Shown here one piece after another: positions 16,501 through 37,356 of a stretch of DNA of 46,582 nt. The position numbers and the translations under genes are program-made. This DNA is from Candidatus Eiseniibacteriota bacterium (lineage in GTDB: Bacteria; Eisenbacteria; RBG-16-71-46). The notes below the pieces were generated by a model, which worked only from the letters and a program-made list of their open reading frames with translations, was not told the origin of the DNA and did not search any database. Each line of letters begins with the position of its first letter. The stretch's first letter is position 1. Location of the stretch: assembly GCA_005893295.1 (NCBI GenBank), contig VBOY01000071.1:1-46582 (forward strand). The letters run 5' to 3'.

Positions 16501-17552
16501 TTGTAAGCCTCGAGGCGCTGCCGCTGACCCCCAGCGGCAAGATCGACCGCCGTGCCCTCCCCTCTCCCAGGAGCATCGGGCCGGCCCTCGACGGCGCCGG
16601 CATCGCTCCGCGCACCCCAACGGAGGAGATCCTCGCCGGAATCTGGTCGCAGCTCCTGCGAATCGAGCGGGTCGGGCGGGAAGACAATTTTTTCGACCTG
16701 GGCGGGCACTCCCTCCTGGCGATGCGGGTGGCGGTGCGCTTGCGGCGCCTCTTTGGTATCGAGCTGCCGCTGCGCTGCCTGTTCGACGCTCCGACGCTAC
16801 GCGGCTTGGCCGCACGCGTCGAGCAGGCCGGCCGCTCCCCGACTCCGCCCCTCGTGCCGGCCACGCCGGCCCAGCGGCTCAGACCCTCCTACGCGCAGCG
16901 GCGCCTCTGGTTCCTGCATCGCCTCGAGCCGCACAGCCCGGCCTACAACATCGCCAACGCGATTCGCGTCGAGGGAAAGCTCGACGTCAAGGCGATCGGG
17001 AGCGCGCTCTCGGAGATCGTGCGGCGCCATGAAGCGCTGCGGACGCGTTTCGAGGAAGGGCCGGACGGCCCCGTCCCGCTCGTCGACCCTCCTGCGCCGG
17101 TCGCGCTGACCATCGAGGATCTGACCGGATTGGCTCCCGACAGCCGGGAGGGCGAGGCGGCGCGGCTGGCCGGCCGCGCCGCCCGCGAGTCTTTCGATCT
17201 GGCGCACGGCCCGTTGCTCCGGGTGCGACTCCTGCGCCTGGGACCCGCGGACCACATCCTCATCGTCGTAATCCACCACATCGCCGCCGACGGCTGGTCG
17301 ATGGGCGTCCTGGTCCGGGAGCTGGCGGCGGCATACGCCGCCCATGCCCGCGGCGCGACGCTACCGACGCGGACTGGGCGGCATGGCAGCGGGCCTGGCT
17401 TGAGGGCGGAGAGATGGAGAGGCAGCTCGCTTGGTGGCGTACCGAGCTGGACGGCCTCGAACCCCTCGCTCTTCCCACCGACCGGCCGCGCTCCGGGCGG
17501 CCGACCTACGCCGGGGCGTCCCTCGAGGTACGGCTGGATGCGGATCTCGTAG
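13545..17552 (+). CDS. NRPS B, first part: C-A(Gln-like)-PCP-C (frameshifted)
   Basis: ATG 13545 overlaps the previous stop. After a linker of about 45 residues come C3 (about 50-485; HHIVADGWS, L-accepting look), A3 (about 505-1010), PCP3 (LGGHSL, Ser about 1056) and the N-terminal half of C4 (HHIAADGWSMG). A3 reads D-A-W-Q-F-G-L-I-D-K, which I recall as a Gln code. From about residue 1275 the translation turns into non-family sequence (LPTRTGRHGSG...) and stops at 17552. The true continuation of C4 (ADWAAWQRAWLEGGE) is in another frame from 17369. Against sister C domains, the codons for about six residues (ELPVQY) are replaced by 2 nt, a net loss of 16 nt. Originally this was surely one gene with the next entry (13545-27316, about 4590 residues). 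Confidence 0.9.
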   Translation: MSDGPSVTDEPDRPAGEILAGEELQLLDALLDAEGVATCRTPCIPKLGARVAPLSSAQRRLWFLQEIDPLSSAYTISGAVLLRGDLDLAALQAALDGVVARHEVLRTTFESDAGEPRQRVHAAMPVVLRRTPGDASLPAAESARVAAELAHPAWDLGRGPLVRAAVVEFSPREHSLVIAMHHIVADGWSIGILLRELGALYNAGLAHLPPSLPEPPVQYADYALWQRQWLEREVLDEELRYWKQQLAGAPERLDLPADGPQPATRGRRGAQQPLSLSAELTESLKALGRREGATLFMTLLAAFQALLHRYTGQDDIVLGTPVAGRHQSEVEGLIGFFVNTLVLRSDLSGDPTFVQLLGRVREVALGAYAHQDLPFEQLVEALRPARDMRHTPLFQVMFALQNAPAEELHLHRLSSTLLPIDVPTAKFDLTLNLAEEGPLLSGTFEYDADRFASATVLRMAGHFQTLLEAIAAHPWTRLSRLPLLTEKESHQLLADREPLHDGAPGRCAHQCFEEQAERTPEAVAVEFQERMLTFGELDQRANQLAHLLRGMGVGSDDVVGLHMERSLEMVVGLLGIQKAGGAYLPLDPSYPRERRSFMLRDARAVLLLTQTGLQDDLPGTAAPIIAVDDRWKLLEGHSRAAPAGSPRPESLAYVIYTSGSTGSPRGVMISHRALGNHMRWMAAAFPLAESDRVLQKTPTSFDASVWEFYAPLIAGARLILARPEGHQDAAYLIDTVQQQGITTLQLVPSMLALLLEDEGVRSCTSLKRVFCGGEVLPWEMQERFFAQLPAADLINLYGPTEATIDATFWACRKSGPRRKVPIGSPIANLRAYVLDSRLQLLPLGVPGELHLAGDGLARGYRGDPAWTAQRFVPDPFSAAAGARLYRTGDLARRLAGGELEFLGRIDHQVKMRGLRVDPQEIEAVLAEHPAVSKAAVVACEDPAGSASQGPRLVAYLAPVPGKAPTPEDLRSFLGERLPRFMIPAVFVSLEALPLTPSGKIDRRALPSPRSIGPALDGAGIAPRTPTEEILAGIWSQLLRIERVGREDNFFDLGGHSLLAMRVAVRLRRLFGIELPLRCLFDAPTLRGLAARVEQAGRSPTPPLVPATPAQRLRPSYAQRRLWFLHRLEPHSPAYNIANAIRVEGKLDVKAIGSALSEIVRRHEALRTRFEEGPDGPVPLVDPPAPVALTIEDLTGLAPDSREGEAARLAGRAARESFDLAHGPLLRVRLLRLGPADHILIVVIHHIAADGWSMGVLVRELAAAYAAHARGATLPTRTGRHGSGPGLRAERWRGSSLGGVPSWTASNPSLFPPTGRAPGGRPTPGRPSRYGWMRIS
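17361..17371 (+). other. Frameshift/deletion point inside condensation domain C4
   Basis: The upstream frame reads ...RGATLP up to 17366 and the downstream frame resumes at 17369 with ADWAAWQ. Sister domains in this window read LPELPVQYADWAAW or similar, so about 16 nt are missing. It may be an assembly or sequencing error or a real inactivating deletion. Confidence 0.85.
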
Positions 17553-23500: not shown

Positions 23501-26500
23501 CAGCTCGCCGAAGAGGCGGCACGGCCTTTCGACCTGGCACGCGGGCCGCTGGTTCGCGTGCGGCTCCTGCGACTGGGCCCCGGGGATCACGTGCTGTCGG
23601 TGGTGGCACATCACATCTCGGCGGACGGCTGGTCCATGGGCGTGCTCGTACGCGATCTGGGCGTGCTCTACGCGGCCTTCACCAAGGGCCGTCCGAATCC
23701 ACTGAGGGAGATGGAGGTCCAGTACCCGGACTGGGCGGCGTGGCAGCGGGCCTGGCTGGAGGGAGGGGAGCTCGACCGGCAGCTCGCCTACTGGCGCGCG
23801 GAGCTGGAGGGCGCGCCGCGGGCGCTGGAGCTCCCCACCGACCGCGCCCGGCCGGCCACCGCGACCTGGAGAGGAGCAACGATCCCGGTGGCTCTCGAAG
23901 GCCGGCTGCACGCCCGTCTGCAGCAACTCGCCCGATCGGCAGGCTCTACGCTCCACATGGCGCTCCTGGCCGGTTATGCGTGGACTCTCATGCGTCAGGG
24001 GTCGCAACGCGACGTGGTCGTCGGGACGCCGGTGGCCAATCGGCGCGCCGCGGAAGCCGAGCCGCTGGTCGGTTTCTTCGTGAACACCCTGGCGGTCCGC
24101 GTGTGCGCCGGCGGGCTAGGAATGACCTACCGCGACCTGCTGTCTCGGGTGCGCGCCGCCTGCCTCGGAGCCTACGCGAACCAGGACGTGCCGTTCGAGC
24201 GCGTCGTCGAGGAGATCCAGCCCGAGCGCTCCCTCAACCGTGCGCCCGTTTTCCAGACCGCCTTCGCGCTGCAGAACGCCCGACTGCCGCCCATCGATCT
24301 TCCGGGCTTGCGGGTGACGCCGTTCGAGGTGGACTCCGCCACGGCGAAGTTCGACCTCATGCTTACCCTCGAGGAAACCGCCGAAGGCCTGGCGGGCGCT
24401 TTCGAATACAACACCGATCTGTTCGATCGCGACACCGTCCAGGGGATCTTCTCGCGCTTCGCCAGGGTCCTCGCGGGGGGCGTCACGGCGCCCGACACTC
24501 CCCTCGTGGAGATTCCCCTCCTCGACGAGGTGGAGCGGCGCCGCGTTCTGGTGGAATGGAATCCGCCCGCTCCCGGCCCGCAGGGGCCGGCACTCCTGCA
24601 CGAGCTGTTCGAGCGGCAGGTACGGCGCACGCCCGACGCGCCGGCGCTGGCCCGTGGGCCCGAAACACTGGGCTACTCCGAGCTCGAGGCGCGGGCAAAC
24701 CGCCTGGCCAACCACCTCCGCTCGCTCGGCATCGGTCCCGAGCGGCGGGTCGCGGTGAGCCTCGAGCGCTCGCCGGAGGCGATTCTCGCCATCCTCGCCG
24801 TCCTCAAGGCCGGGGGCGCCTACGTGGCGCTCGATCCCGGGCAGCCGGAGGAGCGCCTTGGCTGGCTCGTCCGGGACAGCGGCGCCAGCCTCGTCGTGGC
24901 CGACAGCCGATCTTCCGCCAAGATCGCGGCCGGTGGCGCGCCCCTCGTCCTCCTGGACCGGGATGCGGCGGCGATCGCGCGGCACCTGGAAAGTTGCCCG
25001 CCCGCCCGTGCCCGGCCGCAAAACCTGGCGTACGTGCTCTACACGTCCGGCTCCACCGGCCGGCCGAAGGGCGTGGGCATCGAGCACCGGCAGATCGTGA
25101 GCTACGTCGATGCGGCCATCGAGCGACTCGGCATCCGCCCGGGATGGCGCTTCGCCCTGCTTTCCACCTTGGCAGCCGACCTGGGCAACACCGCAATCTT
25201 TCCGTGCCTCGCAACGGGGGGCTGCCTCCACCTCTTCCCGCCGGAGATCGCCCTCGACCCTGCGGGGGTCGAAGCTTATTGCGACGAGCACCTCATCGAC
25301 TGCCTCAAGATTGTCCCGTCGCACCTGCAGGCCTTGCAAGGTGGAGCGCGTCCCGAGCGCGTGTTGCCGCGCCGCCTCCTCATCCTCGGCGGCGAGGCCA
25401 CCGGGGGGGCGCGTCTGGCGGCGCTGCGCCAGCGGGCGCCCGATTGCCGTATTGCCAATCACTACGGGCCCACCGAGACGACCGTCGGCGCCGTGGCGGG
25501 ATTCCTCGGTGCAGCGGATGCCGCGCGTGCCGGCGCCCCCCTCGGGCGCCCCCTGGGCAACACCCGCGCCTACGTCCTCGACGAGCGGCTGCAGCCGCTC
25601 CCCGCGGGCGTGCCGGGGGAGCTGTTCCTCTCCGGCGCCGGCGTTGCCCGCGGCTACCTCGGCTCTCCCGGCCTGACCGCCGAGTGCTTCGGTCCCGACC
25701 CGTACTCAGCGGTGCCGGGCGAGCGCCTCTACCGGACGGGGGATCGGGCCCGCTGGCTGACCGACGGACGCCTCGAATTCCTCGGCCGGGGCGACGGGCA
25801 GGTGAAGGTGCGCGGGTACCGCGTCGAGACGGGTGAGGTGAAAACGGCCATCGAGAGCCATCCCGGCGTGCGGCAAGCGGTGGTCGTCGCCCGCGCGGAC
25901 GCTGCGGCCGGGGCCCGTCTTGTCGCTTACGTCGTCCCCGAACCCGCCGCCTCTCCCACCGTCGACGGACTGCCGCGCCGGAGACTGCCGAACGGCCTGG
26001 CGCTCGCCGAGCTCAACCGCAACGAGACCGACTACATCTTCCGCGAAATCTTCGAGCGGCGGGCCTACGTCCGGCACGGCATCACACTGCGCCGCGGCGA
26101 CATCGTGTTCGACGTCGGGGCCAACGTGGGCCTGTTCACGGTCTTCGCGAGCCTCGCCGGCGCCCCGGCAGTCGTCTTCGCGTTCGAGCCCAATCCGCAC
26201 CTCCTGCCGATGCTGCGCGCCAACGCGTCCTTGTACGCGCCGGGCTCGAGGATCTTCCCCGTCGGGCTGGCCGCCGAGGAGCGGACCGCCCCGTTCACGT
26301 TCTTCCCGGGATTCTCCCTCCTCTCGGGCCTCTATGCCGATGCCGAGGCCGACCAGCAGGTCGTGAAATCGTTCCTTGAAAACCAGGGGCGCGCCGGCGC
26401 CGAGGGCGCCGCGGGCCTCGCGCGGGAGGCCGAAGCGCTGCTCGAGGGGCGCTTCGCCGGCCGGACCTTCGACGTGCCGCTGCGGGTCCTCTCGGAGGTC

Positions 26501-27316
26501 ATCGCCGAGCAGGGCGTCGAGCGCATCGACCTTCTCAAGGTCAACGCCGAGAAGGCGGAGCTCGACGTGCTGCTCGGCCTGAGGGAGAAGGACTGGCCCC
26601 GGATCAGCCAGATCGTGGTCGAGGTCGACCTGACCGCGAACCTCGCTCCCATCCTCGCGCTCCTTAAGGAGCACGACTTCGAGGTTCTCGTCGATCGGGA
26701 TCCGCTGCTCGAGCGGACACAGCTGTGCTACGTCTATGCCGCGCGGCGGGCTTCGGGGCGCACTCTCGCTCCCGGGACCGGGCCGTCCACGGGATTGCTC
26801 GAGCTCGGCGTGGCTCTCCTGGCGCCCGACGTCCTGCGCGCCCATCTGGCCCGCTCGCTGCCCGAGCCGATGCTCCCTTCCGCCTGGGTCTTCCTCGAGT
26901 CCCTGCCGCTCACCGCCAACGGCAAGCTTGACCGGTCCCGCCTGCCCGAGCCGGAGGCGCGGGAGGTCGCCTACGTGGCGCCTCGAGGCGAGCTGGAGCG
27001 AGCGGTGGCCGGCATCTGGTCCGAGTTGCTCGGACGGGAGCGCATCGGCGCAGAGGACAACTTCTTCGACCTGGGAGGCCACTCCCTGCTGCTGGCGCGC
27101 GTGCACGCGCGGCTGCGCGACACCTTGAGCGCGGACCTGTCGGTGGTGGACCTGTTCCGCTTCCCGACCGTCGCCTCCCTCGCCGCGCGCCTCGCGGGGC
27201 AGACAGCGGACCTCAGCGCGCCGCAGGCCGACCGAAACCGCGGCGCCCGGCGGCGCGCCGCCATCCGGCCTCGTGCGGGAAGGCGCCGGGCCGCGACGCC
27301 TGGAGGCGACGCATGA
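17414..27316 (+). CDS. NRPS B, second part: (C)-A(Orn-like)-PCP-C-A(Pro-like)-PCP-C-A(Asp-like)+oMT-PCP
   Basis: The first ATG (17414) is internal to C4; coding in this frame begins at 17369. Order: end of C4; A4 (about 18230-19730) with code D-V-G-E-V-G-G-I-D-K, 8/10 to Orn; PCP4 (Ser 19862); C5 (HHIAADGWS); A5 (about 21400-22900) with D-V-Q-L-N-A-H-L-V-K, 8/10 to the Pro code; PCP5 (Ser 23045); C6 (HHISADGWS); A6 (about 24590 on) with D-L-T-K-I-G-H-V-G-K, close to Asp codes. A6 is split after core A8 by an FkbM-type methyltransferase (25960-26756) and finishes with the A10 core (TANGKLDRS). PCP6 has LGGHSLL (Ser 27083). No E domain follows PCP4, PCP5 or PCP6, so L-residues are expected. The basic C-terminal tail (RRRAAIRPRAGRRRAATPGGDA region) could be a docking element. 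The next gene is 118 nt downstream. Confidence 0.92.
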   Translation: MERQLAWWRTELDGLEPLALPTDRPRSGRPTYAGASLEVRLDADLVGRLTGLARSEGATLHMALLAAFAAVLGRWSGQRDFGIGTPVAGRSREEAEPLIGCFVNSLVVRARLGGDRLPYRELLGRIREAALGGYANQDVPFERVVEELQPDRDLSRTPLFQVMFILQNAPAGELDLGGGVRLTPFDAPIETSTFDLTLSLAPLGDALDGFMEYSTELFEEATIRRLWDHFVRLLESVADDPAADVRRARLLGSDEYVRIVQEWSGRNRVGSADRLVHELFAEQAVAEPERLAAVLGDRRVTYGEIHERSDRLAARLAEHAVGPESRVGLCVQRSPELLVGLMAVLKAGGAFVPLDPEHPRDRLAFALRDAGARVVLATGASATLVEGPGREIIRLDDERSYAAGPLRPRRRPSPAGLAYVIYTSGTTGRPKGVMVAHGALSAAYLAWERLYGFPGIRSHLQMAGVGFDVCTGDVLRALCSGGTLVFCEREQLLDSERLFELARREQVEFAEFVPAVLRPLAAYARKGGRRLPSVRLAVVGSDLWTAAEIAEFRAVFGPGTRLANGYGVTEATIDSTCWFVGDGVAAGNPPIGRPLAHTTVYVLDDRFEPVPAGITGELFLGGPAVARGYIGRPDATAERFLPDPFGEPGDRLYRTGDRARYTADGCLLFAGRLDDQVKIRGLRVEPAEVETLLASFDSVAACAVVPRRDPRGAPCLAAYVVPRDGTSFDPEAARRLLRAELPEAMVPAAIVGLEALPLTLNGKVDRSKLPEPEWGVSGAYEPPRTATELAVAAAFAQVLERARVGAGDDFFALGGHSLLATQVISRLRAALGVELPLRAIFEAPTVRALAACVGAPGESGAPPPVGRATEEERRRPSYAQRRLWFLDRLEPGSAAYNLPSSILLEGDLDVAALERSFGELVRRQEALRTRFVEGPDPPEQVIDAPAALQLGSEDLSGLPEGMRQRAVERLTREEARRPFDLARGPLLRARLLRLEPVRHLLLVTVHHIAADGWSMGLLVRELGLLYGAYCRGHESPLPELPVQYADWAAWQRAWLAAGTMEHQLAYWRAELEGVEPLALSSDRPRPARPTHAGAQIPVRLPAALRAALQRLAGEEGATLTMALLAGYAAALGRWSGQKDFAVGIPVANRRTLEAESLVGFFVNTLAVRLRVGGSGLTFRRLLGRVREAALGAYAHQDVPFERVVEELQPERYLGHNPVVQTLFALQNAPVGAIALPGLSLVYEEPDTGVTRFDVELFLAETPSGLEGTLNYSTELFDRETVERFSENFAAFLQSGVENPDRALGDLPALAPAQLHRVLAEWNAAREPYPDPPVVQALFERLAALDPEAPAAFCGDACLSYGELNARANRLARFLRRQGVGAENLVAVGLERSFDMLAALLAILKAGAAYVPVDPEYPLDRIALILEDARTPVVLTQASHAGRLPGRAARALLLDEDWEAIAREDPGDLGLDVPPDSLVYSVYTSGSTGRPKGVAMTHRAIANLLSWQRRDSGRLGALRTLQFASLSFDVSFQEIFSTLTAGGAIVLVTEEERRDATRLLRLMAAHRVQRLFLPFVALNQLAETAQSAGLSPADLKEINTAGEQLRITPALRAFFGKLPGCRLVNHYGPSETHLVTAFEMEGDPSRWPELPSIGRPIPNAPVFLLDDAGRPVPIGVPGELCVGGAGLARGYHARPELTAERFVPDPFSGEAGARLYRTGDLARFRTDGNLEFLGRLDLQVKVRGYRVEPGEIEAALSRHPAVRQAVVAAHEHRGGKRLAAYVLLHEGKCAAPAQLREHLARELPEFMVPAAILVLEALPVTPNGKVDRLALPEPEWGAAATYIAPRTPQEEIVCGIFAEVLGLERVGVADNFFDLGGHSLLATQVISRVRRAFDAEVLLRILFESPTPAGVAAAAARNVGTPALPPIRRAAEPERRTLSYAQRRLWFLHQLEPASGVYNLPVALRLEGELDIAALGRALSAMVQRHEALRTRIVEGPNGPESIADDPFDLLLEAEDLSRAAGPPAAAAHQQLAEEAARPFDLARGPLVRVRLLRLGPGDHVLSVVAHHISADGWSMGVLVRDLGVLYAAFTKGRPNPLREMEVQYPDWAAWQRAWLEGGELDRQLAYWRAELEGAPRALELPTDRARPATATWRGATIPVALEGRLHARLQQLARSAGSTLHMALLAGYAWTLMRQGSQRDVVVGTPVANRRAAEAEPLVGFFVNTLAVRVCAGGLGMTYRDLLSRVRAACLGAYANQDVPFERVVEEIQPERSLNRAPVFQTAFALQNARLPPIDLPGLRVTPFEVDSATAKFDLMLTLEETAEGLAGAFEYNTDLFDRDTVQGIFSRFARVLAGGVTAPDTPLVEIPLLDEVERRRVLVEWNPPAPGPQGPALLHELFERQVRRTPDAPALARGPETLGYSELEARANRLANHLRSLGIGPERRVAVSLERSPEAILAILAVLKAGGAYVALDPGQPEERLGWLVRDSGASLVVADSRSSAKIAAGGAPLVLLDRDAAAIARHLESCPPARARPQNLAYVLYTSGSTGRPKGVGIEHRQIVSYVDAAIERLGIRPGWRFALLSTLAADLGNTAIFPCLATGGCLHLFPPEIALDPAGVEAYCDEHLIDCLKIVPSHLQALQGGARPERVLPRRLLILGGEATGGARLAALRQRAPDCRIANHYGPTETTVGAVAGFLGAADAARAGAPLGRPLGNTRAYVLDERLQPLPAGVPGELFLSGAGVARGYLGSPGLTAECFGPDPYSAVPGERLYRTGDRARWLTDGRLEFLGRGDGQVKVRGYRVETGEVKTAIESHPGVRQAVVVARADAAAGARLVAYVVPEPAASPTVDGLPRRRLPNGLALAELNRNETDYIFREIFERRAYVRHGITLRRGDIVFDVGANVGLFTVFASLAGAPAVVFAFEPNPHLLPMLRANASLYAPGSRIFPVGLAAEERTAPFTFFPGFSLLSGLYADAEADQQVVKSFLENQGRAGAEGAAGLAREAEALLEGRFAGRTFDVPLRVLSEVIAEQGVERIDLLKVNAEKAELDVLLGLREKDWPRISQIVVEVDLTANLAPILALLKEHDFEVLVDRDPLLERTQLCYVYAARRASGRTLAPGTGPSTGLLELGVALLAPDVLRAHLARSLPEPMLPSAWVFLESLPLTANGKLDRSRLPEPEAREVAYVAPRGELERAVAGIWSELLGRERIGAEDNFFDLGGHSLLLARVHARLRDTLSADLSVVDLFRFPTVASLAARLAGQTADLSAPQADRNRGARRRAAIRPRAGRRRAATPGGDA
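25960..26756 (+). other. FkbM-family methyltransferase domain embedded in A6
   Basis: About 265 residues are inserted between adenylation cores A8 and A10. The SAM-binding motif is IVFDVGANVGLFTVF, followed by FAFEPNPHLLPML and the FkbM-family signature region LLKVNAEKAELDVLLGL. FkbM-type domains are O-methyltransferases, unlike the N-methyltransferases usually found at this A-domain position. On an Asp-activating module the likely target is the side-chain carboxylate, giving a methyl ester (inference). Confidence 0.85.
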
Positions 27317-27434: not shown

Positions 27435-30400
27435 ATGAGCCGAGAGAATCCCCTCGACCTCGAGGTCGCCATCATCGGCATGGCGGGCCGCTTTCCCGGC
27501 GCGGATTCCATCGAGGCGTTCTGGCGAAACCTCCGAGCAGGAGTGGAATCGATCCGCGACCTGTCGGACGACGAGCTGCGAGCGGCCGGAGTGGACCCCG
27601 CAACCCTTGCCGACCCGCGCCTCGTACGGCGAGCGGCGGACCTAAGGGGTGCCGATCGCTTCGACGCCGCGCTGTTCGGCTTCACGCCCCGCGAAGCGGA
27701 GCTCATGGACCCGCAATTCCGCGTCTTCCTCGAGGACTCCTGGACGGCACTGGAGAACGCCGGCTACCTGTCCGACCGGCATGACGTGCGCGTGGGCGTG
27801 TTCGCGGGCGCCGGGCCCAATACCTACCTCCTCAACAACGTCTACTCGAACCCGCAGGCCGCCCAGACGCTCGGTGCGTTCCAGACTTCCATCGGCAACG
27901 AGCGGGACTATCTGGCCACCCATGTCTCCTACCGTCTCGACCTGAGGGGGCCGAGCTTGGTCGTCCAGACGGCCTGCTCGACCAGTCTGGTCGCCATCCA
28001 CCTGGCGTGCCAGAGCCTGCTCAACCATGAGTGCGACATCGCCCTCGCCGGCGGCGTTTCCATCAGCGTGCCCCAAACGGCAGGATACCTGTACGAGGAG
28101 GGTGGCATCGCCTCCCCGGACGGCCATTGCCGCGCCTTTGACGAGGCCGCGACCGGATGCGTGAAAGGGAACGGCTCGGGGATCGTCGTCCTCAAGCGTC
28201 TCGCGGAGGCCCTGCGTGACGGCGACACCCTGCGCGCGGTCATCAAGGGCTCGGCCGTGAACAACGACGGCAGCCTGAAGCTGGGCTTCACGGCGCCCAG
28301 CGACGCGGGCCAGGCCGGGGTCATCACCGAAGCCCTCTCCGTGGCGGGCGCGGACGCGGCCAGCGTCACCTATGTGGAGGCGCACGGCACCGGCACCACC
28401 CTCGGCGACCCCGTGGAAGTGGCGGCCCTGGCGCGGGCCTTCGGCGCTCCGGCCGGCCGCATCGGCCGCTGCGCCCTCGGGTCGGTCAAGACCAACGTGG
28501 GCCACCTGGATGCGGCGGCCGGCGTGGCCGGGCTGATCAAAACGGTGCTCTCCCTCGAGCATCGGGAGATCCCTCCCAGCCTGCACTTCCGGCGCCCCAA
28601 TCCGAAGATCGACTTCGCAGCCACCCCCTTCTACGTCAATGCCGACCTGCGTGACTGGCCGGGCGACGGCACTCCGCGCCGCGCCGGGGTGAGCTCCTTC
28701 GGCATCGGCGGCACCAACGCTCATCTGATCCTCGAGGAGCCGCCCGCCTCGGCCCCGTCGGGGCGCGCCCGCCCGGCACAAGTATTCGTCCTTTCGGCGG
28801 CCACCGAGTCGGCGCTGTCGGCGGCCTCGGAGAGCCTCGCAGCGCTGCTGGAGTCGGGCGCCTCTCCGAACCTGGCGGATGCCGCCTACACGCTGCAGGT
28901 CGGACGAAAGCGCCTGCCGTGGCGCCGGGCGGTTACGGGAAGAGACACGGCGGAAGTGATCGCCGCCCTCCGGCAAGGCCCGCATTCGTCACGCGCTCGC
29001 CATGACCTGCGCCGCGGCGCCGAAATCGCCTTCCTCTTCCCGGGCCAGGGTGCGCAGCACCCGGGGATGACCGCCGAGCTGTACCGCCACGAGGCGGCGT
29101 TCCGCGATCCCTTCGACCGGTGCGCCGACCGGCTCCGTCCCCTGCTCGGCCTCGATCTGCGCCGTCTCGTCTTCGCTGCCGACGAGGGTTGGGAGACGGC
29201 GGAAGCGCGCCTCCGCGAGACCTCCCTCTCTCAACCGGCGCTGTTCGCCGTCGAGTTTGCGCTCGCCCGGCTCTGGATCTCCTGGGGTGTCCGGCCCGTG
29301 GCCATGGCCGGCCACAGCATCGGGGAATACGTCGCCGCCTGCCTGGCGGGCGTGCTGTCGTTGGAGGAAGCGCTCGGGCTGGTGGCCGAACGAGGCCGGC
29401 TCATGGGAAGCCTGCCCCGCGGTGCCATGCTCGCCGTGCAGGCCACCGAGGCGGACCTGGCGGCGCGGCTGACTGGCTATCCGGCGCTGTCGGTGGCCGC
29501 GATCAACGGTCCGTCATCGTGCGTCGCCTCGGGGCCGGAGGCGGAGATCGGGCGGCTCGAGGCCGAGCTCGCCGGCACCCCAACGGCACACCGCCGCGTC
29601 CACACGTCCCACGCCTTCCACTCCGCCATGATGGACCCGATCCTCGGGGCGTTCGCGGAGCGCGTCCGGCAAACCCGTCTCAGCGCCCCCTCCATCCCGT
29701 TTCTTTCCAACCTGACCGGGACTTGGATTACGGCGGAGCAGGCGACGGATCCGGCTTACTGGGTGGGTCACCTCCGGAGTGCGGTGCGCTTCGCGGACAA
29801 CCTCGCAACCCTGCTCACCGACCCCGCGCGCGTGCTGCTCGAGGTCGGCCCCGGGACGTTGCTCACGTCCCTGGCCCGTCAGCAGGGAAGCCCCGATATC
29901 ACCCTGGTCGCATCGCTGCGGCACCCTAAGCAGGGCGGCCCCGAGGAAGTCGCCCTGCTCGAGGCGCTGGGGAAGCTTTGGTGCGCCGGCATCGACATCG
30001 ACTGGGAAGCGTTTCACACGGGGTTCGGCCGCCGGCGTGTCCCCCTCCCGACCTATCCCTTCGAGCGGCGGCGCCACTGGATCGAGCCAGGGTCCGGCCC
30101 GGGCGCGGCGGAGGCGACAGGTGTGCCGGCCAAGGAGCCGGACATCGCCCGCTGGTTCTACGCTCCGGGCTGGAAACGATCGCTGACGCGCGGGGCAGCG
30201 CCGGAGGCGGAGCCGCCGTGGCTCGTTTTCGATGACGGTTCGAAGCTCGCGCGCGCCGTCGTCGACCTGGCCGTGGCGCGCGGGGGCTCCGTCACGAGCG
30301 TCCTTGCGGGCGCCGAATTCCTGCACGAGGGAGGAGAGCGGTTCCGGATCGACCCGCGCCGCCGGGAGCACTACGACCGGCTGCTCCGAGAGCTGCACGA

Positions 30401-31580
30401 GACGGGGCGATCGCCGGGGCGCATCGTGCACTTGTGGTGTGCCGACGGATCGCGAATCGACCCCGCGTCCGCCCAGGATGTTGGGTTCTTCTCGCTGCTC
30501 GCTCTCTTCCAGGCGATGGGGGCCGTGGCGGCAGCGGATGACGTCCGGTTGGCGGCCGTGGCGGGCGGACTCTTCGATGTCGTCGGCGAGGAAGTCGTCC
30601 GTCCCGAGCGGGCCACGCTCGTGGGGGCCTGCCGCGTCGCGTCTCAGGAATACCCGGGGTTGACCTGCCGGCTGGTGGACGTGGGAGAGGCGGACATCAC
30701 CCTGGCAGCCCGCAACATCGCCGACGAGCTCGAGGCGGACGATGGCGAGAGAGTGGTCGCCTGGCGCGGCGGCCACCGCTGGGTCCCTGCCTATCAAAAG
30801 ATCCGGCTCGAGCCGCCATCCGGCGGGCCGCCGGTGGTCCGGGCGGGCGGAGCGTTCCTGCTGACCGGCGGCACGGGGCCGCTCGAGCTGGCGATTGCGG
30901 AGCGCCTGGCGGCGGCGGGGGCGAAAGGCATCGCGTTCATCGAATGCGACGGGGGCGCCGAAGCGGCGGTGGCCGGGCTGCGTGACCGCGGCATCGAGGT
31001 CCTCTGCTCCCCGGCCCTCGTCACCCGCCGCGAGGCTCTCGCCGGGGCCGTCGCCGCGGCCCACACCCGCTTCGGCCGCCTCGACGCCATCTTCCACACG
31101 GCCGGCGCCATCGGGGGCGGAATGATCCAGCTCAAGGAGCGCGAGGCCGCCGAGCGCCTGCTGGCGCCGCGACTCGACGGCGCGCGACTCCTGGCCGGCC
31201 AGCTCGAACCCGGCGCGACGCTCGTGCTCTTCTCCTCGGCCATTTCGGCGACCGGGGTCTTCGGTCAGGTCGATTTCTGCGCCGCCAGCGCGTTTCTGGA
31301 TGCCTTCGCCCACTCCCGGAGGCGGAGCCGCCGTGGCTCGTTTTCGATGACGGTTCGAAGCTCGCGCGCGCCGTCGTCGACCTGGCCGTGGCGCGCGGGG
31401 GCTCCGTCACGAGCCGATCGACGAGGGGGTCGAGGCGCTCTGGAGGGCCCTCGATCTGGGTCTTCCCCAGGTGGTCGTGTCGACGCAGGATCTCGACGAA
31501 CTTGTGGCCCAGGCGACTTCGTCCTCGGTGGCCGAGTTTCTCGAGGGGGTCGGCCGGGCGACTCCGCAGCAGGATGGTGA
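27435..31580 (+). CDS. Type I PKS C: KS-AT(malonyl)-degenerate KR, frame broken near 31316
   Basis: KS (about 8-430) has TACSTS (Cys about 181), EAHGTGT and KTNVGHLDAAAG. AT (about 530-820) has FPGQGAQ, GHSIGEY (Ser about 628) and HAFHS, the pattern of malonyl-CoA specificity. The KR (about 905-1290) is eroded. The NADPH motif reads TGGTGPLEL, losing the last Gly of GxGxxG. The usual Lys is Arg (APRLDG, about 1246). The active Tyr is Phe and the Asn is Ser (GQVDFCAASAFLD, about 1281 and 1285); only the Ser (about 1268) remains. From 31316 a 99-bp copy of 30201-30299 replaces the end of the KR and shifts the frame; residues after about 1294 are not real PKS sequence. The ACP continues in another frame (31417-31941). 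ATG 27435 has only a distant GGAG. Expected role: add one C2 unit to the Asp-terminated chain, leaving a beta-ketone. Confidence 0.92.
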   Translation: MSRENPLDLEVAIIGMAGRFPGADSIEAFWRNLRAGVESIRDLSDDELRAAGVDPATLADPRLVRRAADLRGADRFDAALFGFTPREAELMDPQFRVFLEDSWTALENAGYLSDRHDVRVGVFAGAGPNTYLLNNVYSNPQAAQTLGAFQTSIGNERDYLATHVSYRLDLRGPSLVVQTACSTSLVAIHLACQSLLNHECDIALAGGVSISVPQTAGYLYEEGGIASPDGHCRAFDEAATGCVKGNGSGIVVLKRLAEALRDGDTLRAVIKGSAVNNDGSLKLGFTAPSDAGQAGVITEALSVAGADAASVTYVEAHGTGTTLGDPVEVAALARAFGAPAGRIGRCALGSVKTNVGHLDAAAGVAGLIKTVLSLEHREIPPSLHFRRPNPKIDFAATPFYVNADLRDWPGDGTPRRAGVSSFGIGGTNAHLILEEPPASAPSGRARPAQVFVLSAATESALSAASESLAALLESGASPNLADAAYTLQVGRKRLPWRRAVTGRDTAEVIAALRQGPHSSRARHDLRRGAEIAFLFPGQGAQHPGMTAELYRHEAAFRDPFDRCADRLRPLLGLDLRRLVFAADEGWETAEARLRETSLSQPALFAVEFALARLWISWGVRPVAMAGHSIGEYVAACLAGVLSLEEALGLVAERGRLMGSLPRGAMLAVQATEADLAARLTGYPALSVAAINGPSSCVASGPEAEIGRLEAELAGTPTAHRRVHTSHAFHSAMMDPILGAFAERVRQTRLSAPSIPFLSNLTGTWITAEQATDPAYWVGHLRSAVRFADNLATLLTDPARVLLEVGPGTLLTSLARQQGSPDITLVASLRHPKQGGPEEVALLEALGKLWCAGIDIDWEAFHTGFGRRRVPLPTYPFERRRHWIEPGSGPGAAEATGVPAKEPDIARWFYAPGWKRSLTRGAAPEAEPPWLVFDDGSKLARAVVDLAVARGGSVTSVLAGAEFLHEGGERFRIDPRRREHYDRLLRELHETGRSPGRIVHLWCADGSRIDPASAQDVGFFSLLALFQAMGAVAAADDVRLAAVAGGLFDVVGEEVVRPERATLVGACRVASQEYPGLTCRLVDVGEADITLAARNIADELEADDGERVVAWRGGHRWVPAYQKIRLEPPSGGPPVVRAGGAFLLTGGTGPLELAIAERLAAAGAKGIAFIECDGGAEAAVAGLRDRGIEVLCSPALVTRREALAGAVAAAHTRFGRLDAIFHTAGAIGGGMIQLKEREAAERLLAPRLDGARLLAGQLEPGATLVLFSSAISATGVFGQVDFCAASAFLDAFAHSRRRSRRGSFSMTVRSSRAPSSTWPWRAGAPSRADRRGGRGALEGPRSGSSPGGRVDAGSRRTCGPGDFVLGGRVSRGGRPGDSAAGW
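30201..30299 (+). repeat. 99-bp direct repeat, copy 1 (native)
   Basis: It is identical over 99 bp to 31316-31414. Here it is in frame with the PKS (PPWLVFDDGSKLARAVVDL) and reads as the normal structural subdomain ahead of a KR, so this is the original copy. Confidence 0.93.
31316..31414 (+). repeat. 99-bp direct repeat, copy 2 (displaced, breaks the KR)
   Basis: It is an exact copy of 30201-30299 placed 1115 bp downstream, where the last 40-50 residues of the KR core are expected. The PKS frame before it, the native reading of the repeat, and the PKS frame after it are three different frames. No inverted ends or transposase are present. The length of exactly 99 bp suggests a k-mer-type assembly join (inference). 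Confidence 0.93.
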
Positions 31581-31941
31581 AGGGACCGATGTCTCGGCGC
31601 TCGAGTCCGACACCCAGCGCCGGGTCGCGGCGTTATGGTCCCGGCTTCTCGGCGTCGGACGGATCGGTCGGCAGGACAATTTCTTCGACCTCGGCGGGAA
31701 TTCGCTGCTCGCCATTCAGCTCGCCTCACACCTTCGCAAGGCGTTCGACATCGACCTGACGATCGCCCGATTGTTCGAGTCGCCCGACCTCGCGAGCCTC
31801 GCGGCCGCGGTGGAGGCGTCTTTGGAGGAGCGGCGCAAGGGCGAGGAGGTCGCCCGGCTACTGGAGGAAATCGAGAGTCTGTCGGAGGACGAGGTCCGAA
31901 CTGAGCTTACCCGCGCCGTCGGAGCAGAGGGGGGGAGGTAG
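31417..31941 (+). CDS. PKS C, C-terminal part: KR end and ACP
   Basis: This is the continuation of the PKS in a different frame. It starts with the usual end of a KR (EGVEALWRALDLGLPQVVVS) and continues to an ACP with FFDLGGNSLL (Ser at 31702) and the post-Ser helix LFESPDLASLAAAVEAS. The tail LLEEIESLSEDEVRTELT is an acidic amphipathic helix of the kind used for docking to the next subunit. An internal GTG at 31471 is the first start codon but lacks support as a real start. The stop is 4 nt before the next gene. It should be read as part of one protein spanning 27435-31941. Confidence 0.88.
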   Translation: MDEGVEALWRALDLGLPQVVVSTQDLDELVAQATSSSVAEFLEGVGRATPQQDGEGTDVSALESDTQRRVAALWSRLLGVGRIGRQDNFFDLGGNSLLAIQLASHLRKAFDIDLTIARLFESPDLASLAAAVEASLEERRKGEEVARLLEEIESLSEDEVRTELTRAVGAEGGR

Positions 31942-31945
31942 CCCG

Positions 31946-33232
31946 ATGAGCGACGTGAACGACCGCCTGGCGAAGCTGAGCCAGGAGCAGCGGCGACTGC
32001 TGGAGAGGAAGCTGAGAGAGCGCGGCCTCGAGGCGCCGGGAGCCCGCCCGGTGCGCCGCGCGAACCCCGACTCCGCCGCAGCCGAGGAGCGGGAGCCGGA
32101 CGCCTGGCGCCGCCGGCCTCCGGAGCACCCCCTGCGCTTCAGTCTCTACTTCTTCTCGGACGACGGCTCGAAGGAGACCCAAGACAAGTACCGCCTGGTG
32201 CTGGAGAGCGCGCGCTTCGCCGACGAGCACGGCTTCGACGCGGTGTGGACGCCCGAGCGGCACTTCCAGGCTTTCGGAGGCCTCTATCCGAATCCGTCGG
32301 TGCTGGGAGCGGCGCTGGCCGCCATCACCTCCCGCGTCGGCATCCGGGCCGGGAGCGTGGCGCTGCCGCTGCACCATCCCGTCCGGGTCGCCGAAGAGTG
32401 GTCGGTGGTCGACAACCTCTCCCACGGGCGGGTGGCACTCTCCTTCGCTTCGGGCTGGCACCCCGATGATTTCGTTCTCTCTTCGAGCCCCTACGGCGAA
32501 CGGAAGGAGGTCATGTTCCGCGGCATCGAAACGATTCGGCGTCTTTGGGCGGGTGAGGCAATTCCCTTGGAGGGGCCGGAGGGACGGGTCGTGGAAATCC
32601 GCATCCTCCCCCGCCCGGTGCAGCCCGAGCTCCCCATCTGGGTAACCAGTGCGGGCAGCCCCGAGACCTGGGAGCGCGCCGGAGCCATCGGCGCCAACGT
32701 GCTCGCCGCGCTGGTCGGTTATCCGCCCGAGGAGCTCGCGGACCAGATCCGGCGCTACCGGCGGGCCCGCGCCGCCGCCGGGCACGACCCCGACCGGGGG
32801 ATCGTGACGATCGTCGTCCACACCTACGTCGGGACGGACAACGCGGAAGTGCGCGAGCGAGTGCGCGAGCCGATGACGAACTACCTGAAAACCTACCTCA
32901 AGCAGTTTCAGAGACTGGCGCTGGAGCCGACCCACGCCACCGAGCGCGACGCGCGCGACGTCGCGGCGCTGGCCTTCGAGCACTACTTCGACTCCAGCAC
33001 GCTGCTCGGGACGCCGAACAAGTGCGCCCGGATCGCGGACGCCGTCGCCCGGTGCGGGGCGGACGAGATCGCCTGTCTGATCGACTTCGGACTCGACGCG
33101 GACCTGGTGCTCGCAGCGCTCCCCCGGCTCGCCCAGCTGCGGGAGCACTACGCCGCCGGTCCGGCCCGGACCCAGAGAGCTTTCGACGGCAAGGCCCCGC
33201 CGGTCGTCGCCGGCGACGAGGTAAGTGCGTGA
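31946..33232 (+). CDS. Luciferase-like flavin-dependent monooxygenase (LLM class) with N-terminal docking-like helix
   Basis: The protein has 428 residues. The LLM domain runs from about 63 to 400, with WTPERHFQAFGGLYPNP, GSVALPLHHPVRVAEEW and LSHGRVALSFASGWHPDDF, typical of the secondary-metabolism branch of luciferase-like monooxygenases found in PKS/NRPS clusters. It would use reduced FMN and O2. In that branch MupA of mupirocin biosynthesis is linked to hydroxylation of the polyketide; Baeyer-Villiger chemistry also occurs in the wider family. Residues 5-29 (RLAKLSQEQRRLLERKLRER) match the N-terminal helices of NRPS F and G, so it probably docks to the PKS ACP or its neighbours and acts on a tethered chain (inference). 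ATG 31946 follows a strong GGGGGGAGG. It lies 4 nt after the PKS stop. Confidence 0.9.
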   Translation: MSDVNDRLAKLSQEQRRLLERKLRERGLEAPGARPVRRANPDSAAAEEREPDAWRRRPPEHPLRFSLYFFSDDGSKETQDKYRLVLESARFADEHGFDAVWTPERHFQAFGGLYPNPSVLGAALAAITSRVGIRAGSVALPLHHPVRVAEEWSVVDNLSHGRVALSFASGWHPDDFVLSSSPYGERKEVMFRGIETIRRLWAGEAIPLEGPEGRVVEIRILPRPVQPELPIWVTSAGSPETWERAGAIGANVLAALVGYPPEELADQIRRYRRARAAAGHDPDRGIVTIVVHTYVGTDNAEVRERVREPMTNYLKTYLKQFQRLALEPTHATERDARDVAALAFEHYFDSSTLLGTPNKCARIADAVARCGADEIACLIDFGLDADLVLAALPRLAQLREHYAAGPARTQRAFDGKAPPVVAGDEVSA

Positions 33233-33278
33233 CTCACTTTCAAGCGCGGCGCAGGCCGCAGACAAGGAGGACTCCCCG

Positions 33279-33965
33279 ATGCTAGCTCGACGACTCAAGG
33301 AAACGCTCACCAACCATCCATTGCGCCAGCAGCTCGTCTCCCACTCGTTTTTCGACCGAATCCGCACCGCGCCCCTGTCCCGCGGCCAGGTGGCCACGTT
33401 CCTGGGTCAGTGGTGGCATCCGCTGCACTATTTTCCCGTCTTCCTGTCGCGGCTCATCTCGATCTCGCCGCGCGTCGAACTGCAGACGGCGGTCTCCAAG
33501 ATCCTCTACCAAGAGCTTGGCGAGGGGGACGAGCGCCGGGCGCACGAAGTCCTTTATCTCAGCACCATGACACCCCTCGGCTTCGCAAAAGCCGAAGTGA
33601 GCGGAGCGGCCCCCTTTCCGGCAACGGCGCGCCTGGTCGCCGCCTATGCCGAGTCCTCGGCCGATCTGCTCGCCGGCCTCGGCTTCATGTACGGGACGGA
33701 AGTGGCCGATCTGGCCATGGTCTCCGGGATCGGGACGGCAGTGCGGCGCGTGACCGGCGCGGCGGCCCTCCCGTGGGTCGACATCCACGTGGAGCAGGAG
33801 CCCGAGCACGTCGCCCGGGCCAACGACTCCCTGGGGCTGGATCTGTCGGAGACCCAGGAGAAGGCGCTGCTGGCCAGCGCCGAGTCGATGTGGCGCCACT
33901 GGATCGCGTTCTTCGACGCGCTGGAACGCGCGGCCTTCGCATCCCAAGCCGCCACCGCGTCCTGA
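33279..33965 (+). CDS. Heme-oxygenase-like diiron-type oxidase (iron-containing redox enzyme family)
   Basis: The protein has 228 residues and looks all-helical. The start ATG 33279 is chosen because AAGGAGG (33264-33270) lies 8 nt before it; the frame is open further upstream to 33225. Candidate metal ligands follow the pattern of the TenA/PqqC/heme-oxygenase-like (HDO) superfamily: YQELGEGDERRAHEV (Glu79, His89), GTEVADL (Glu141) and DIHVEQEPEHV (His170, Glu174, His177). Family members include UndA, SznF and other O2-using diiron enzymes that do decarboxylation, N-oxidation or C-H oxidation. Here it sits between the flavin monooxygenase and the next NRPS, so it likely acts on the chain after the PKS step or on the building block of NRPS F (inference). 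The exact reaction is unknown. Confidence 0.82.
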   Translation: MLARRLKETLTNHPLRQQLVSHSFFDRIRTAPLSRGQVATFLGQWWHPLHYFPVFLSRLISISPRVELQTAVSKILYQELGEGDERRAHEVLYLSTMTPLGFAKAEVSGAAPFPATARLVAAYAESSADLLAGLGFMYGTEVADLAMVSGIGTAVRRVTGAAALPWVDIHVEQEPEHVARANDSLGLDLSETQEKALLASAESMWRHWIAFFDALERAAFASQAATAS

Positions 33966-33996: not shown

Positions 33997-36900
33997 GTGA
34001 CCGGCCTCGACGCGCGACTCGCGGCGCTCACACCCGAGCAGCGCGCTCTCTTCGAGGCGCGGCTGAAGCAGAAAGGTCTCACTGCGCCTCGGCCGCAGCG
34101 CATCCAGCCCATCCCGAACCGGGAGCGCCTCGAGTCGTTTCCCACCTCCCTGGACCAGGAGCGGCTGTGGTTCATCGATCAGATGGAGCCGGGCAACCCC
34201 GCCTACAACATCCACCAGGCGAGCCGCCTGTTCGGTCCCATCGATGCGGAGCTCATGCGGCGTGCCGTCAACGCCTCCCTGGCCCGGCACGAGGTGCTCC
34301 GCACCACGTTCCGGGTGGTGGACGGGCGGCCTGTCCAGGTGGTCGCGCCATCGCTGGAGATCGACGTGCCCGTCACCGACCTCTCCCGCGTCCCGGACGG
34401 CGAGCGGGAAGCGGCCGCCTTGCGGGCGGCGGTGCAGGCGGCGGCCGTGCGCTTCGACCTCGAGCGCGGGCCGCTGGTGCGGGTCGGCCTCGCCCGGCTC
34501 GGCCCCGGGGACCATGTCCTCACCATCTGCATGCACCACGCGGTGACGGATCGCTTCTCCTTCGACATCTTCGAGCACGAAATCTCGCGGATCTACGTCG
34601 CGCTGCGCGACGGCGGCACGGCGGAGCTGCCGCGCCTCCCCATCCAGTTCGCGGATTTCGCCGCATGGCAGCGGGAGGAGCTCTCCGGCGAGCGCCTCGA
34701 GCGTCACCTGGCGTATTGGCGCGACAAGCTCGCCGGCGCGCCGCCGGTGCTGGAGATCCCCACGGACCGGCGGCGTCCGCCCGTCCAGACCTTCCAGGGG
34801 GCGCGCGCCACCATCGTCTACCCCGACGCCTTGCTCGTGGCCCTCAAGGCGGTCGCCCGCGAGGCCAACGCCACGATGTTCATGACCATGCTCGCCGCCC
34901 TGGACGTGCTCTGCTGGAAGTACACCTCGCAGCGCGATCTGATCATCGGCTCCGCCATCGCCGATCGCAACCGGTCCGAGACGGAAAACGTCATCGGCTA
35001 CTTCCTCAACATGCTGCTGCTGCGCGCCACCCTCGATCCGGTCATGAGCTTCCGCCAGCTCCTCGCCCAGGTGCGCGAGACGGCGCTGGGCGCCTACGCC
35101 CACCAGGACGTCCCCTTCGCGACCCTCGTCGCCGAGCTCCGCCCGCGGCAGGACCCCAGCCGCAACCCCCTCATCCAGGTCTCGTTCATCTACCTCGACT
35201 TCCCCGTCCTGGAGACGCCCGAGTACGCCGGCCTCTCGTCGGCCCCCATGGACGTGGACAACGGCGCGTCCCGCTTCGACATGACGCTGGCGTGCACGGA
35301 GCTGCCGGGTACGGGAATCCACGGCTACATCGAGTACAACACCGACCTCTACGATCGGTTGAAGGTCGAGCGCATGCTGCGCCACCTGGGCCGGATCCTC
35401 GAGTCGGTCGCGGCCGAGCCGGACCGACCCTTGGGCGAGATCGAGATGCTCACCGCCCAGGAGCGGGAGGGTCTGACGGTCCGGTTCAACGACACGGTGC
35501 GGCAGGCCGACGACGCCTGCCTGCACGAGCTGTTTGAGCGCGCCGTCACCGCTTCGCCGGACCAACCCGCCCTGGTGTTCGGCAGGAGCGTGACGACCGG
35601 AGGCCGGCTCGACGCTGCGGCCAACCGGCTCGCCCGCCGGCTGCGCGAGGCGGGCGTCGGAGCGGGCTCGTTGGTGCCCGTGTGCGCCGAGCGCTCGCCC
35701 GAGCAGGTGGTCGCGGTCCTGGCCGTGCTCAAGGCGGGAGGCGCTTACGCTCCGCTCGACGCCGGACTTCCCTCCGGGCGCCTCGCGAGCATGCTCGCCG
35801 ACCTGAGTCCTACGGTGGTCCTGGTTCAGCGCCGCCTGGCACCCGCGGTCCCTCAGACCGGCGGCGCCGCGCTCCTCGAGATCGAACCGGCGTGGGATGA
35901 GAGTCTCGAGAGGCGCCACGAGACGCCGCCCCTGCCCGCGCCCGGTGACCTGGCCTACGTGATGTTTACCTCGGGCTCCACGGGGGCACCGAAGGGAGTC
36001 ATGGTCCCCCACCGGGCCATCGTCAATCGGCTGCGGTGGGCGCAGGAGAGGTATCCCATCCGGCCGGGCGAGAGGGTGCTCCACAACTCCTCCTTCGGGT
36101 TCGACATCGCCGTGTGGGAGCTCTTCGGCCCGCTCCTGGCCGGCGGGACGGTGGTCCTTCCACGGGAGGGCGAGCATAAGGATCCGGCGGCGCTGGCCCG
36201 CCTCGTCCGCGACGAGCGCGTCGCCGTGGCCCATTTCGTCCCGTCGCTGCTGCGCCCATTCCTCGACGCCCCCGAACTCGCCGAGTGCCGCTCACTGCGG
36301 GCGGTGTTCTGCGGGGGGGAGGGGATGGATCGGGAGCTGCACGACCGATTCTTCGAGAGGCTTCCGGGCCGCACCTTGGCCCACTTCTACGGTCCGACCG
36401 AGGCCGCCATCAGTTGTCTGGCCTGGGACTGCGGGCCCGGCCTCGCCCCCGGCGCGGTGCCGCTGGGCCGGCCCGTCGCCAACACGCGCGTCTACTTGCT
36501 GGACTCCTCGTTTCAGCCGGTCCCGGTGGGCGTGCCGGGAGAGATCGCCATCGGCGGCGTGGGGCTGGCGCGCGGCTATCTCGCGCGACCCGATCTCACC
36601 TCCGACCGCTTCGTGCCCGATCCGATCTCCGGGGAGGCGGGGGCACGGCTCTATCGTACGGGGGACGTCGCAAAGTTCCGCGACGACGGCGTGCTGGAGT
36701 TCCTCGGGCGCTCCGATCATCAGATCAAGATCCGCGGACATCGCATCGAGCCGGGCGAGATCGAGACGGCCCTCGAACGGATTCCGAACGTGAGGCGGGC
36801 CGTCGCCGTGGCCCGCGGGGAAGGTGCGGCGCGTCGGCTCGTGGCCTACTTGGTCGCGGACGGGGAGGCGCCCGACGAATCCGCCCTGCGCGCGGCGCTG

Positions 36901-37356
36901 CGGCGCTCGCTCCCCGAAGTCATGATCCCCGCGGCATTCGTGGCGCTGGACGAGCTGCCGCTGGGCGCCCACGGCAAGGTCGACCGCGCGGCGCTCCCGG
37001 AGCCCGGCGCCCCCGCCGCATCCTCCTCGACCGTCGCCCCCCGAACCCCCGCCGAAGAGTTGATCGCCCGGATCTGGGCCGAGCTGCTGCGGCGCGACCG
37101 CGTGGGAGTCGAGGACAATTTCTTCGATCTGGGCGGCGACTCGCTCCTCGCGACCCAGGTTGTTTCGCGCGTGCGCTCCGCCTTCGGCGTGGACCTGCCG
37201 CTCCGCCGCTTCTTCGAGGGATCCACGGTCGCCGCGCTGGCGGGGATGGTCGAGGCTCTGCTCGTCGACAAGCTCCGGTCCATGCCCGAAGAGGAGGCGG
37301 CACGGCTCCTCCACTCCGAGCCCGGTCCTTTCCAGCAGGTGAGTGATGAGCCCTGA
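33997..37356 (+). CDS. NRPS F: C-A(unassigned)-PCP
   Basis: 1119 residues. GTG 33997 is supported by AGGAG (33984-33988) at 8 nt. The N-terminal helix RLAALTPEQRALFEARLKQK is docking-like. C7 (about 40-480) has HHAVTDRFSFD, keeping HHxxxD but with Arg-Phe in place of the usual Gly-Trp; it must accept the upstream ketide. A7 (about 510-1005) reads D-I-W-H-F-G-F-I-S-K. It shares five positions with Ser codes (D, W, H, F, K), not enough to name a substrate. The segment before core A2 is also odd (VTTGGRLDAAANRLA where YxELxxxANRLA is usual). PCP7 has FFDLGGDSLL (Ser at 37141), with no E domain after it. The C-terminal tail (LRSMPEEEAARLLHSEPG) may dock NRPS G. The stop lies 11 nt inside the next gene. 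Confidence 0.93.
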   Translation: MTGLDARLAALTPEQRALFEARLKQKGLTAPRPQRIQPIPNRERLESFPTSLDQERLWFIDQMEPGNPAYNIHQASRLFGPIDAELMRRAVNASLARHEVLRTTFRVVDGRPVQVVAPSLEIDVPVTDLSRVPDGEREAAALRAAVQAAAVRFDLERGPLVRVGLARLGPGDHVLTICMHHAVTDRFSFDIFEHEISRIYVALRDGGTAELPRLPIQFADFAAWQREELSGERLERHLAYWRDKLAGAPPVLEIPTDRRRPPVQTFQGARATIVYPDALLVALKAVAREANATMFMTMLAALDVLCWKYTSQRDLIIGSAIADRNRSETENVIGYFLNMLLLRATLDPVMSFRQLLAQVRETALGAYAHQDVPFATLVAELRPRQDPSRNPLIQVSFIYLDFPVLETPEYAGLSSAPMDVDNGASRFDMTLACTELPGTGIHGYIEYNTDLYDRLKVERMLRHLGRILESVAAEPDRPLGEIEMLTAQEREGLTVRFNDTVRQADDACLHELFERAVTASPDQPALVFGRSVTTGGRLDAAANRLARRLREAGVGAGSLVPVCAERSPEQVVAVLAVLKAGGAYAPLDAGLPSGRLASMLADLSPTVVLVQRRLAPAVPQTGGAALLEIEPAWDESLERRHETPPLPAPGDLAYVMFTSGSTGAPKGVMVPHRAIVNRLRWAQERYPIRPGERVLHNSSFGFDIAVWELFGPLLAGGTVVLPREGEHKDPAALARLVRDERVAVAHFVPSLLRPFLDAPELAECRSLRAVFCGGEGMDRELHDRFFERLPGRTLAHFYGPTEAAISCLAWDCGPGLAPGAVPLGRPVANTRVYLLDSSFQPVPVGVPGEIAIGGVGLARGYLARPDLTSDRFVPDPISGEAGARLYRTGDVAKFRDDGVLEFLGRSDHQIKIRGHRIEPGEIETALERIPNVRRAVAVARGEGAARRLVAYLVADGEAPDESALRAALRRSLPEVMIPAAFVALDELPLGAHGKVDRAALPEPGAPAASSSTVAPRTPAEELIARIWAELLRRDRVGVEDNFFDLGGDSLLATQVVSRVRSAFGVDLPLRRFFEGSTVAALAGMVEALLVDKLRSMPEEEAARLLHSEPGPFQQVSDEP

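Follow-up and report, generated by a model that had tools for sequence, protein, structure and literature searches.

A candidate oxidation step formed by a luciferase-like monooxygenase and an HDO after a PKS module with a degenerate KR in an NRPS-PKS cluster of Candidatus Eiseniibacteriota

Introduction

Several described assembly lines place an oxygenase at the point where a PKS module hands its product to the next module. Microginin-type cyanobacterial units combine a PKS with an aminotransferase, a monooxygenase and an NRPS. In puwainaphycin biosynthesis, the luciferase-like monooxygenase (LLM) PuwE lies between PKS and NRPS modules, and the product carries a 3-amino-2-hydroxy unit (PMC4219810). 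The mupirocin MmpD/MmpA bimodule works with MupA, an LLM that hydroxylated only a beta-keto substrate, bound to the ACP; in that system, the KR acts once the hydroxyl group is in place, and the next domain is a KS0 (PMC10952193). The MupA homologue OocM is likewise an alpha-hydroxylase (PMC10952193). In keramamide- and calyxamide-type pathways, a PKS module and an oxygenase domain yield an oxidized amino acid extended by one carbon (PMC12858407), and YM-47141 contains a vicinal tricarbonyl group (PMC7291377).

Heme-oxygenase-like diiron oxidases (HDOs) form a separate family of O2-dependent enzymes. The known members BesC, CADD, PolF, HrmI and UndA share one fold. Their known substrates are free amino acids, fatty acids or peptides, and they are not known to use the product of a PKS module; BesC breaks a C-C bond. 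Substrates of known HDOs are mostly amino acids or peptides, and C-C scission and methine excision are among the reactions of the family (PMC13185094).

Here, we describe a locus that joins an LLM and an HDO between a PKS module with a degenerate KR and an NRPS. It lies in a 46,582-nt stretch of DNA from Candidatus Eiseniibacteriota (contig VBOY01000071.1), which we call the window. Like the mupirocin system, it has an LLM of the same NCBIfam family at a module junction with a predicted ACP-bound beta-ketoacyl chain (PMC10952193), but its KR is degenerate, the module is followed by an NRPS C domain, and there is an HDO in addition. It shares the position of its LLM with PuwE, whereas no aminotransferase of the kind that turns the beta-ketone into an amine in puwainaphycin (PMC4219810) and in microginin-type units is seen, and an HDO is found instead.

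Architecture of the cluster

By its Pfam and domain map, the window (positions 1-46582) is an NRPS-PKS cluster for a putative fatty-acid-tailed peptide (Table 1). Genes for a Crp-type regulator and for a phosphopantetheinyl transferase lie upstream. The code of the loading domain is not amino-acid-like, and the domain resembles a fatty-acyl-AMP ligase. Residues named for the other adenylation (A) domains of the window (Orn, Val, Gln, Pro, Asp, Leu) are presumed assignments from specificity-code tables. An earlier note, made from the sequence of this DNA, had described two O2-using enzymes in one block after a PKS module and before an NRPS, and every part that it named is present where it had been placed. 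The Asp/FkbM module said to precede the PKS is borne out by the code DLTKIGHVGK (DLTKVGHVGK in an acidobacterial orthologue, G142) and by a PF05050 match, and the C domain after the HDO, called unusual, carries HHxxxDR where HHxxxDG is expected.

A smaller frame break lies further upstream, at ~17342-17363 (near 17350) within the C domain 16887-18169, and makes one NRPS gene read as two ORFs, 13545-17552 and 17414-27316. The same genome holds a second large NRPS contig (C131, locus L093), which may continue the cluster; no end sequence common to it and the window contig was found in the part compared.

Table 1. Features of the window (all positions on the forward sequence; A-domain residues are presumed assignments)
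Feature	Position	Strand	Remarks
Upstream NRPS	3649..27316	+	FAAL-type loading domain, then Orn, Val, Gln, Orn, Pro, Asp modules; annotated as three ORFs
Asp-coded A domain, module directly before PKS	24602..25990	+	code DLTKIGHVGK
FkbM-type methyltransferase domain in Asp module	26054..26713	+	PF05050; 66% identity in G142
Carrier domain of Asp module	26978-27196	+	domain map
PKS module KS-AT-KR(dead)-ACP, one gene with broken frame	27435..31941	+	frame broken at ~31316-31414; intact orthologous ORFs in G142 and G208 (L052)
PKS KS	27459-28742	+	ketoacyl-synt
PKS AT	29019-29984	+	Acyl_transf_1; HAFH, malonyl type
PKS KR	30135-31322	+	KR family match; degenerate
99-bp exact repeat, copy 1	30201..30299	+	read in frame within structural subdomain of KR; its true place
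99-bp exact repeat, copy 2	31316..31414	+	out of frame, takes place of KR 3' end; probable assembly artefact
PKS ACP	31549-31848	+	frame other than KS-AT-KR; open frame ends at 31938
Spurious ORF	31635..31904	+	no family match; overlies true ACP frame
LLM, MupA/Atu3671 family	31946..33232	+	TIGR04020
HDO	33225..33965	+	PF14518
C-A-T module that would accept chain	33997..37356	+	A code DIWHFGFISK
Downstream NRPS	37343..46582	+	one module with Leu code and N-methyltransferase, one with Pro code, one more; runs on to contig end 49457

A PKS module with a degenerate KR

The PKS had been read as a single ORF, 27435-31580. This ORF does contain the KS, AT and KR, but it lacks an ACP and terminates out of frame. 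A PKS without ACP was considered and rejected, as the ACP (..DNFFDLGGNSLLAIQL..) is encoded in a different frame, behind the second copy of a 99-bp repeat that shifts the frame of the gene. The two copies form the sole exact repeat of at least 40 bp in the 46.6-kb window. Because this k-mer-sized repeat coincides with the break, the break is probably an assembly error; where the window carries the second copy, the G142 orthologue has ~42 residues (..GPRVVAIDWG..).

The degeneracy of the KR, also claimed earlier, recurs in three orthologues. A lysine-to-arginine change (LAPR), an asparagine-to-serine change (CAAS) and replacement of the last Rossmann glycine by glutamate (GGTGxxE) are common to the KRs of the window, G142 and G208, and a tyrosine-to-phenylalanine change is found in the window alone among the three. 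The complete set of K, S, Y and N catalytic residues with GGxGxxG that marks a functional KR is thus not retained in any of the three. Decay merely resulting from the frame break was rejected, since the orthologues with intact frames have the same losses. Of all domains compared, the KR moreover shows the lowest conservation (57% and 59% identity to G142 and G208, respectively). The PKS of a Pseudanabaena locus with a PKS and LLM and no HDO (L097) retains the lysine, the asparagine and the Rossmann glycine. Given the loss of catalytic residues and of the Rossmann glycine, the ACP of the window module is predicted to present an unreduced beta-ketoacyl thioester.

The luciferase-like monooxygenase

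The LLM is encoded between the PKS ACP and the NRPS C domain and scores 474 bits against TIGR04020 (cutoff 244; orthologue 466 bits). Its nearest solved structure is PuwE (6ket, E 1e-107). Docking of the LLM to the assembly line had been proposed. Residues 1-55 (31946-32110) do form an N-terminal segment (MSDVNDRLAKLSQEQRRLLERKLRERG) that resembles the N-terminus of the NRPS protein encoded downstream (MTGLDARLAALTPEQRALFEARLKQKG); docking through this segment is itself plausible from the likeness.

Among the three chemistries put forward for the unit, alpha-hydroxylation by the LLM is the best supported, because MupA requires a beta-keto substrate and the PuwE pathway yields an alpha-hydroxy unit. 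By analogy with these relatives, the LLM is likely to alpha-hydroxylate the beta-ketoacyl-ACP. Features specific to the two known settings are missing: an NRPS C-A-T module follows the ACP in the place of a non-elongating KS0, and in the window, G142 and G208 alike, the HDO gene is the only one between the LLM and the NRPS that follows, with no aminotransferase there.

LLMs also occur in other arrangements among the loci collected. MtaG of myxothiazol biosynthesis, where glycine is hydroxylated to give a terminal amide, offers a parallel to LLMs inserted in A domains with Gly-type codes (e.g. GVKQLGMIWK), as seen in loci L046, L047, L054 and L055. In two further loci (L096, 3706-9168; L100, 1-2733), an LLM-inserted A domain is followed by an FkbM domain of the same module, which suggests O-methylation of an alpha-hydroxy amino acid.

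The HDO and its relatives

The ORF of the HDO overlaps that of the LLM by 8 bp. Its AlphaFold model (pLDDT 92.4) has the HDO fold, with Foldseek matches to CADD, PolF, HrmI, BesC and UndA at ~11-18% identity. All six predicted metal ligands (E97, H107, E159, H188, E192, H195) stay unchanged across 19 sequences and align with those of BesC, which of the solved HDOs matches best by profile. Identity to BesC is 16-17%, and scores stay under the curated subfamily cutoffs for BesC (NF042919, 19 bits against 500) and CADD (TIGR04305, 42.5 bits against 200).

Profile sampling, in which the seed genomes are counted, found HDO relatives in 3 of 396 Acidobacteriota, 16 of 195 Myxococcota, 1 of 292 Cyanobacteriota, 1 of 399 Pseudomonadota and 2 of 397 Actinomycetota genomes; none were found in the other genomes of the window's own phylum that were examined. 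A genome-contig scan gave 29 HDO loci, none with an LLM or KS within ~10 kb and many in NRPS clusters. PKS- and LLM-free relatives (by ~10-kb flanks) include those of Streptomyces, Sorangium and Corallococcus, and several of the NRPS clusters concerned carry Pro-coded A domains. The neighbours vary widely, with P450, Fe/2OG chlorinating enzyme, PhzF and desaturase-like genes, and some of the genomes hold LLMs elsewhere. The idea of the HDO as an obligate partner of the LLM was therefore rejected, and, as most relatives are without LLM or KS within ~10 kb, HDO chemistry in this group is not tied to PKS units.

Other relatives are linked to PKS modules independently of the window cassette. The HDO of genome G048, among the closest relatives of the window HDO, belongs to a cluster in which a PKS module that lacks a KR is succeeded by a free ACP, an acyl-CoA dehydrogenase and FkbH (278 bits, cutoff 147). 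From these genes, a hydroxy- or methoxymalonyl extender probably gives an alpha-oxygenated beta-keto unit by another route; a complete dehydrogenase of the extender pathway was not found in G048, only a truncated dehydrogenase-like ORF, and the HDO gene is on the opposite strand, some 20 kb away from the PKS. In G063 (L054), the neighbours of the HDO are a KR-less PKS and an NRPS whose Gly-type A domain contains an inserted LLM, and in one Nocardia genome an LLM lies ~10 kb from the HDO. A single C-domain type following all HDO-linked PKS modules was rejected, as the C domain of G048 is unrelated to that of the window.

Two recurrent gene sets involve HDOs of the window clade. L025 (8071-12564) and similar actinomycete loci (L019, L026, L027) encode the HDO with a Pro-coded A-T didomain, an Fe/2OG chlorinating enzyme, a hydroxylase, a desaturase-like protein and PhzF, an uncharacterized amino-acid tailoring set. 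In L009 (8907-10669) and other Corallococcus loci, the HDO gene is divergent from a fatty-acid-desaturase-like gene, a pair conserved across Corallococcus with no NRPS nearby.

Conservation of the cassette

Co-occurrence of an LLM, an HDO and a degenerate KR in other genomes, for which the earlier note had proposed a search, was found in two Acidobacteriota. G208 (L052) and G142 (L053) carry KS-AT-KR(dead)-ACP, LLM, HDO and C-A-T in the same order, and since this order recurs in two independent genomes, the arrangement is not due to chance. Only the contig of G142 reaches far enough upstream to show what precedes the cassette, namely FAAL-type loading, Orn, Orn, Pro and Asp with FkbM, all of which are found in the window too. 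The A code after the HDO, DIWHFGFISK, is identical in L052. Identities between the window and G142/G208 are 76/79% for the LLM, 69/86% for the HDO, 75/79% for the KS and 75/78% for the next C domain; most other NRPS domains compared are at 59-66%, with the Pro A domain at 70%. The HDOs of the window, G208 and G142 group together in the tree (support 97/98).

The order PKS, LLM and NRPS (or C domain) also exists without an HDO. Loci of Pseudanabaena ABRG5-3, Allorhizobium ampelinum S4 and Streptomyces KN37 share it with the window but, unlike the window, have no HDO within the flanks examined, and the KR of the Pseudanabaena locus has intact catalytic residues. The set had been called unmatched among described pathways. 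This part of it, PKS-LLM-NRPS, is already known; in the open-licence papers searched, we found no pathway that combines an LLM, an HDO and a dead KR, and no matching pathway for alpha-ketoamide formation or for FkbM-Asp. As the complete cassette recurs in two other bacteria, it is probably a real and undescribed oxidation step.

Proposed mechanism and alternatives

We propose that the cassette is a conserved oxidation station in an NRPS-PKS lipopeptide line, where the LLM and then the HDO act on one beta-keto unit, a reading to which we give a probability of roughly 0.5. The KS-AT-ACP module would extend the Asp-loaded, FkbM-modified peptidyl chain with malonate, and the dead KR would leave a 3-oxo (beta-ketoacyl) thioester on the ACP. 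The stand-alone LLM, with FMNH2 and O2, would hydroxylate the alpha carbon. The HDO would then carry out a second O2-dependent oxidation on the alpha-hydroxy-beta-keto unit, before the distinctive C domain takes over the oxidized chain. Possible products are a vicinal alpha,beta-diketo amide and, if one carbon is lost, an alpha-ketoamide; C-C cleavage is a further possible outcome. The vicinal tricarbonyl of YM-47141 (PMC7291377) offers a parallel for the diketo amide, and the C1 extension of keramamides and calyxamides (PMC12858407), with methine excision as an HDO reaction (PMC13185094), for the alpha-ketoamide. We tentatively suggest, as an outcome that is possible though not favoured, that the two enzymes turn the beta-ketoacyl-ACP, still on its carrier protein, into either an alpha-ketoacyl unit, extended by one carbon, or an alpha,beta-diketo unit.

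The role of the LLM in this scheme is firmer than that of the HDO, for which action on the LLM-hydroxylated unit stands at about even odds. Such action is supported by the conserved adjacency to the LLM and by the independent link of HDO relatives to alpha-oxygenated, unreduced PKS units. The HDO could instead tailor another residue (Pro, Orn, Asp or the one coded by DIWHFGFISK), free or carrier-bound, while the LLM alpha-hydroxylates the beta-keto unit; the place of its gene beside the LLM would then be a convenience of the operon. This is a serious if somewhat doubtful possibility, which draws on the relatives in NRPS clusters without LLM or PKS within ~10 kb, several of them with Pro-coded A domains, and on the preference of known HDOs for amino acids or peptides (PMC13185094). 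It sits poorly with an LLM adjacency kept in two phyla at high identity, with the gene overlap in the window, and with the clusters of G048 and L054, whose KR-less PKS modules come with a route to alpha-oxygenation.

Two other chemistries suggested earlier appear improbable. A Baeyer-Villiger insertion by the LLM at the beta-ketone, giving a backbone ester, would make use of the ketone that the dead KR retains, and flavin monooxygenases of other families (OocK, LmbC_OX) do perform this reaction in trans-AT PKSs (PMC10952193). It finds no support among characterized members of the LLM's own family, where alpha-hydroxylation is the activity of both the TIGR04020 member MupA and its homologue OocM (PMC10952193) and the PuwE pathway gives an alpha-hydroxy unit (PMC4219810), and we consider it the least probable of the readings. 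Cleavage of the beta-keto unit by the HDO is possible as a reaction, as C-C scission and methine excision are listed for the family (PMC13185094). BesC, its best solved profile match, also breaks a C-C bond. On the other hand, identity to BesC is only 16-17%, and the complete C-A-T and further modules directly downstream imply that the chain must stay on the line. An HDO that acts first or alone, removing polyketide carbons and ending or shortening the chain, is accordingly given a very small chance, hardly above that of the ester.

Significance

The cassette of three genomes provides a compact set for testing, with one ACP, one LLM and one HDO. If the HDO works on the PKS unit together with the LLM, the scope of diiron HDO chemistry would grow beyond amino acids to polyketide intermediates bound to a carrier, and this could explain electrophilic alpha-keto or vicinal dicarbonyl groups such as those of the elastase inhibitor YM-47141 and of keramamide-type peptides. 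Should the proposed conversion by the LLM and HDO hold true, the two enzymes would form a dedicated route by which a lipopeptide acquires an electrophilic ketoamide derived from Asp.
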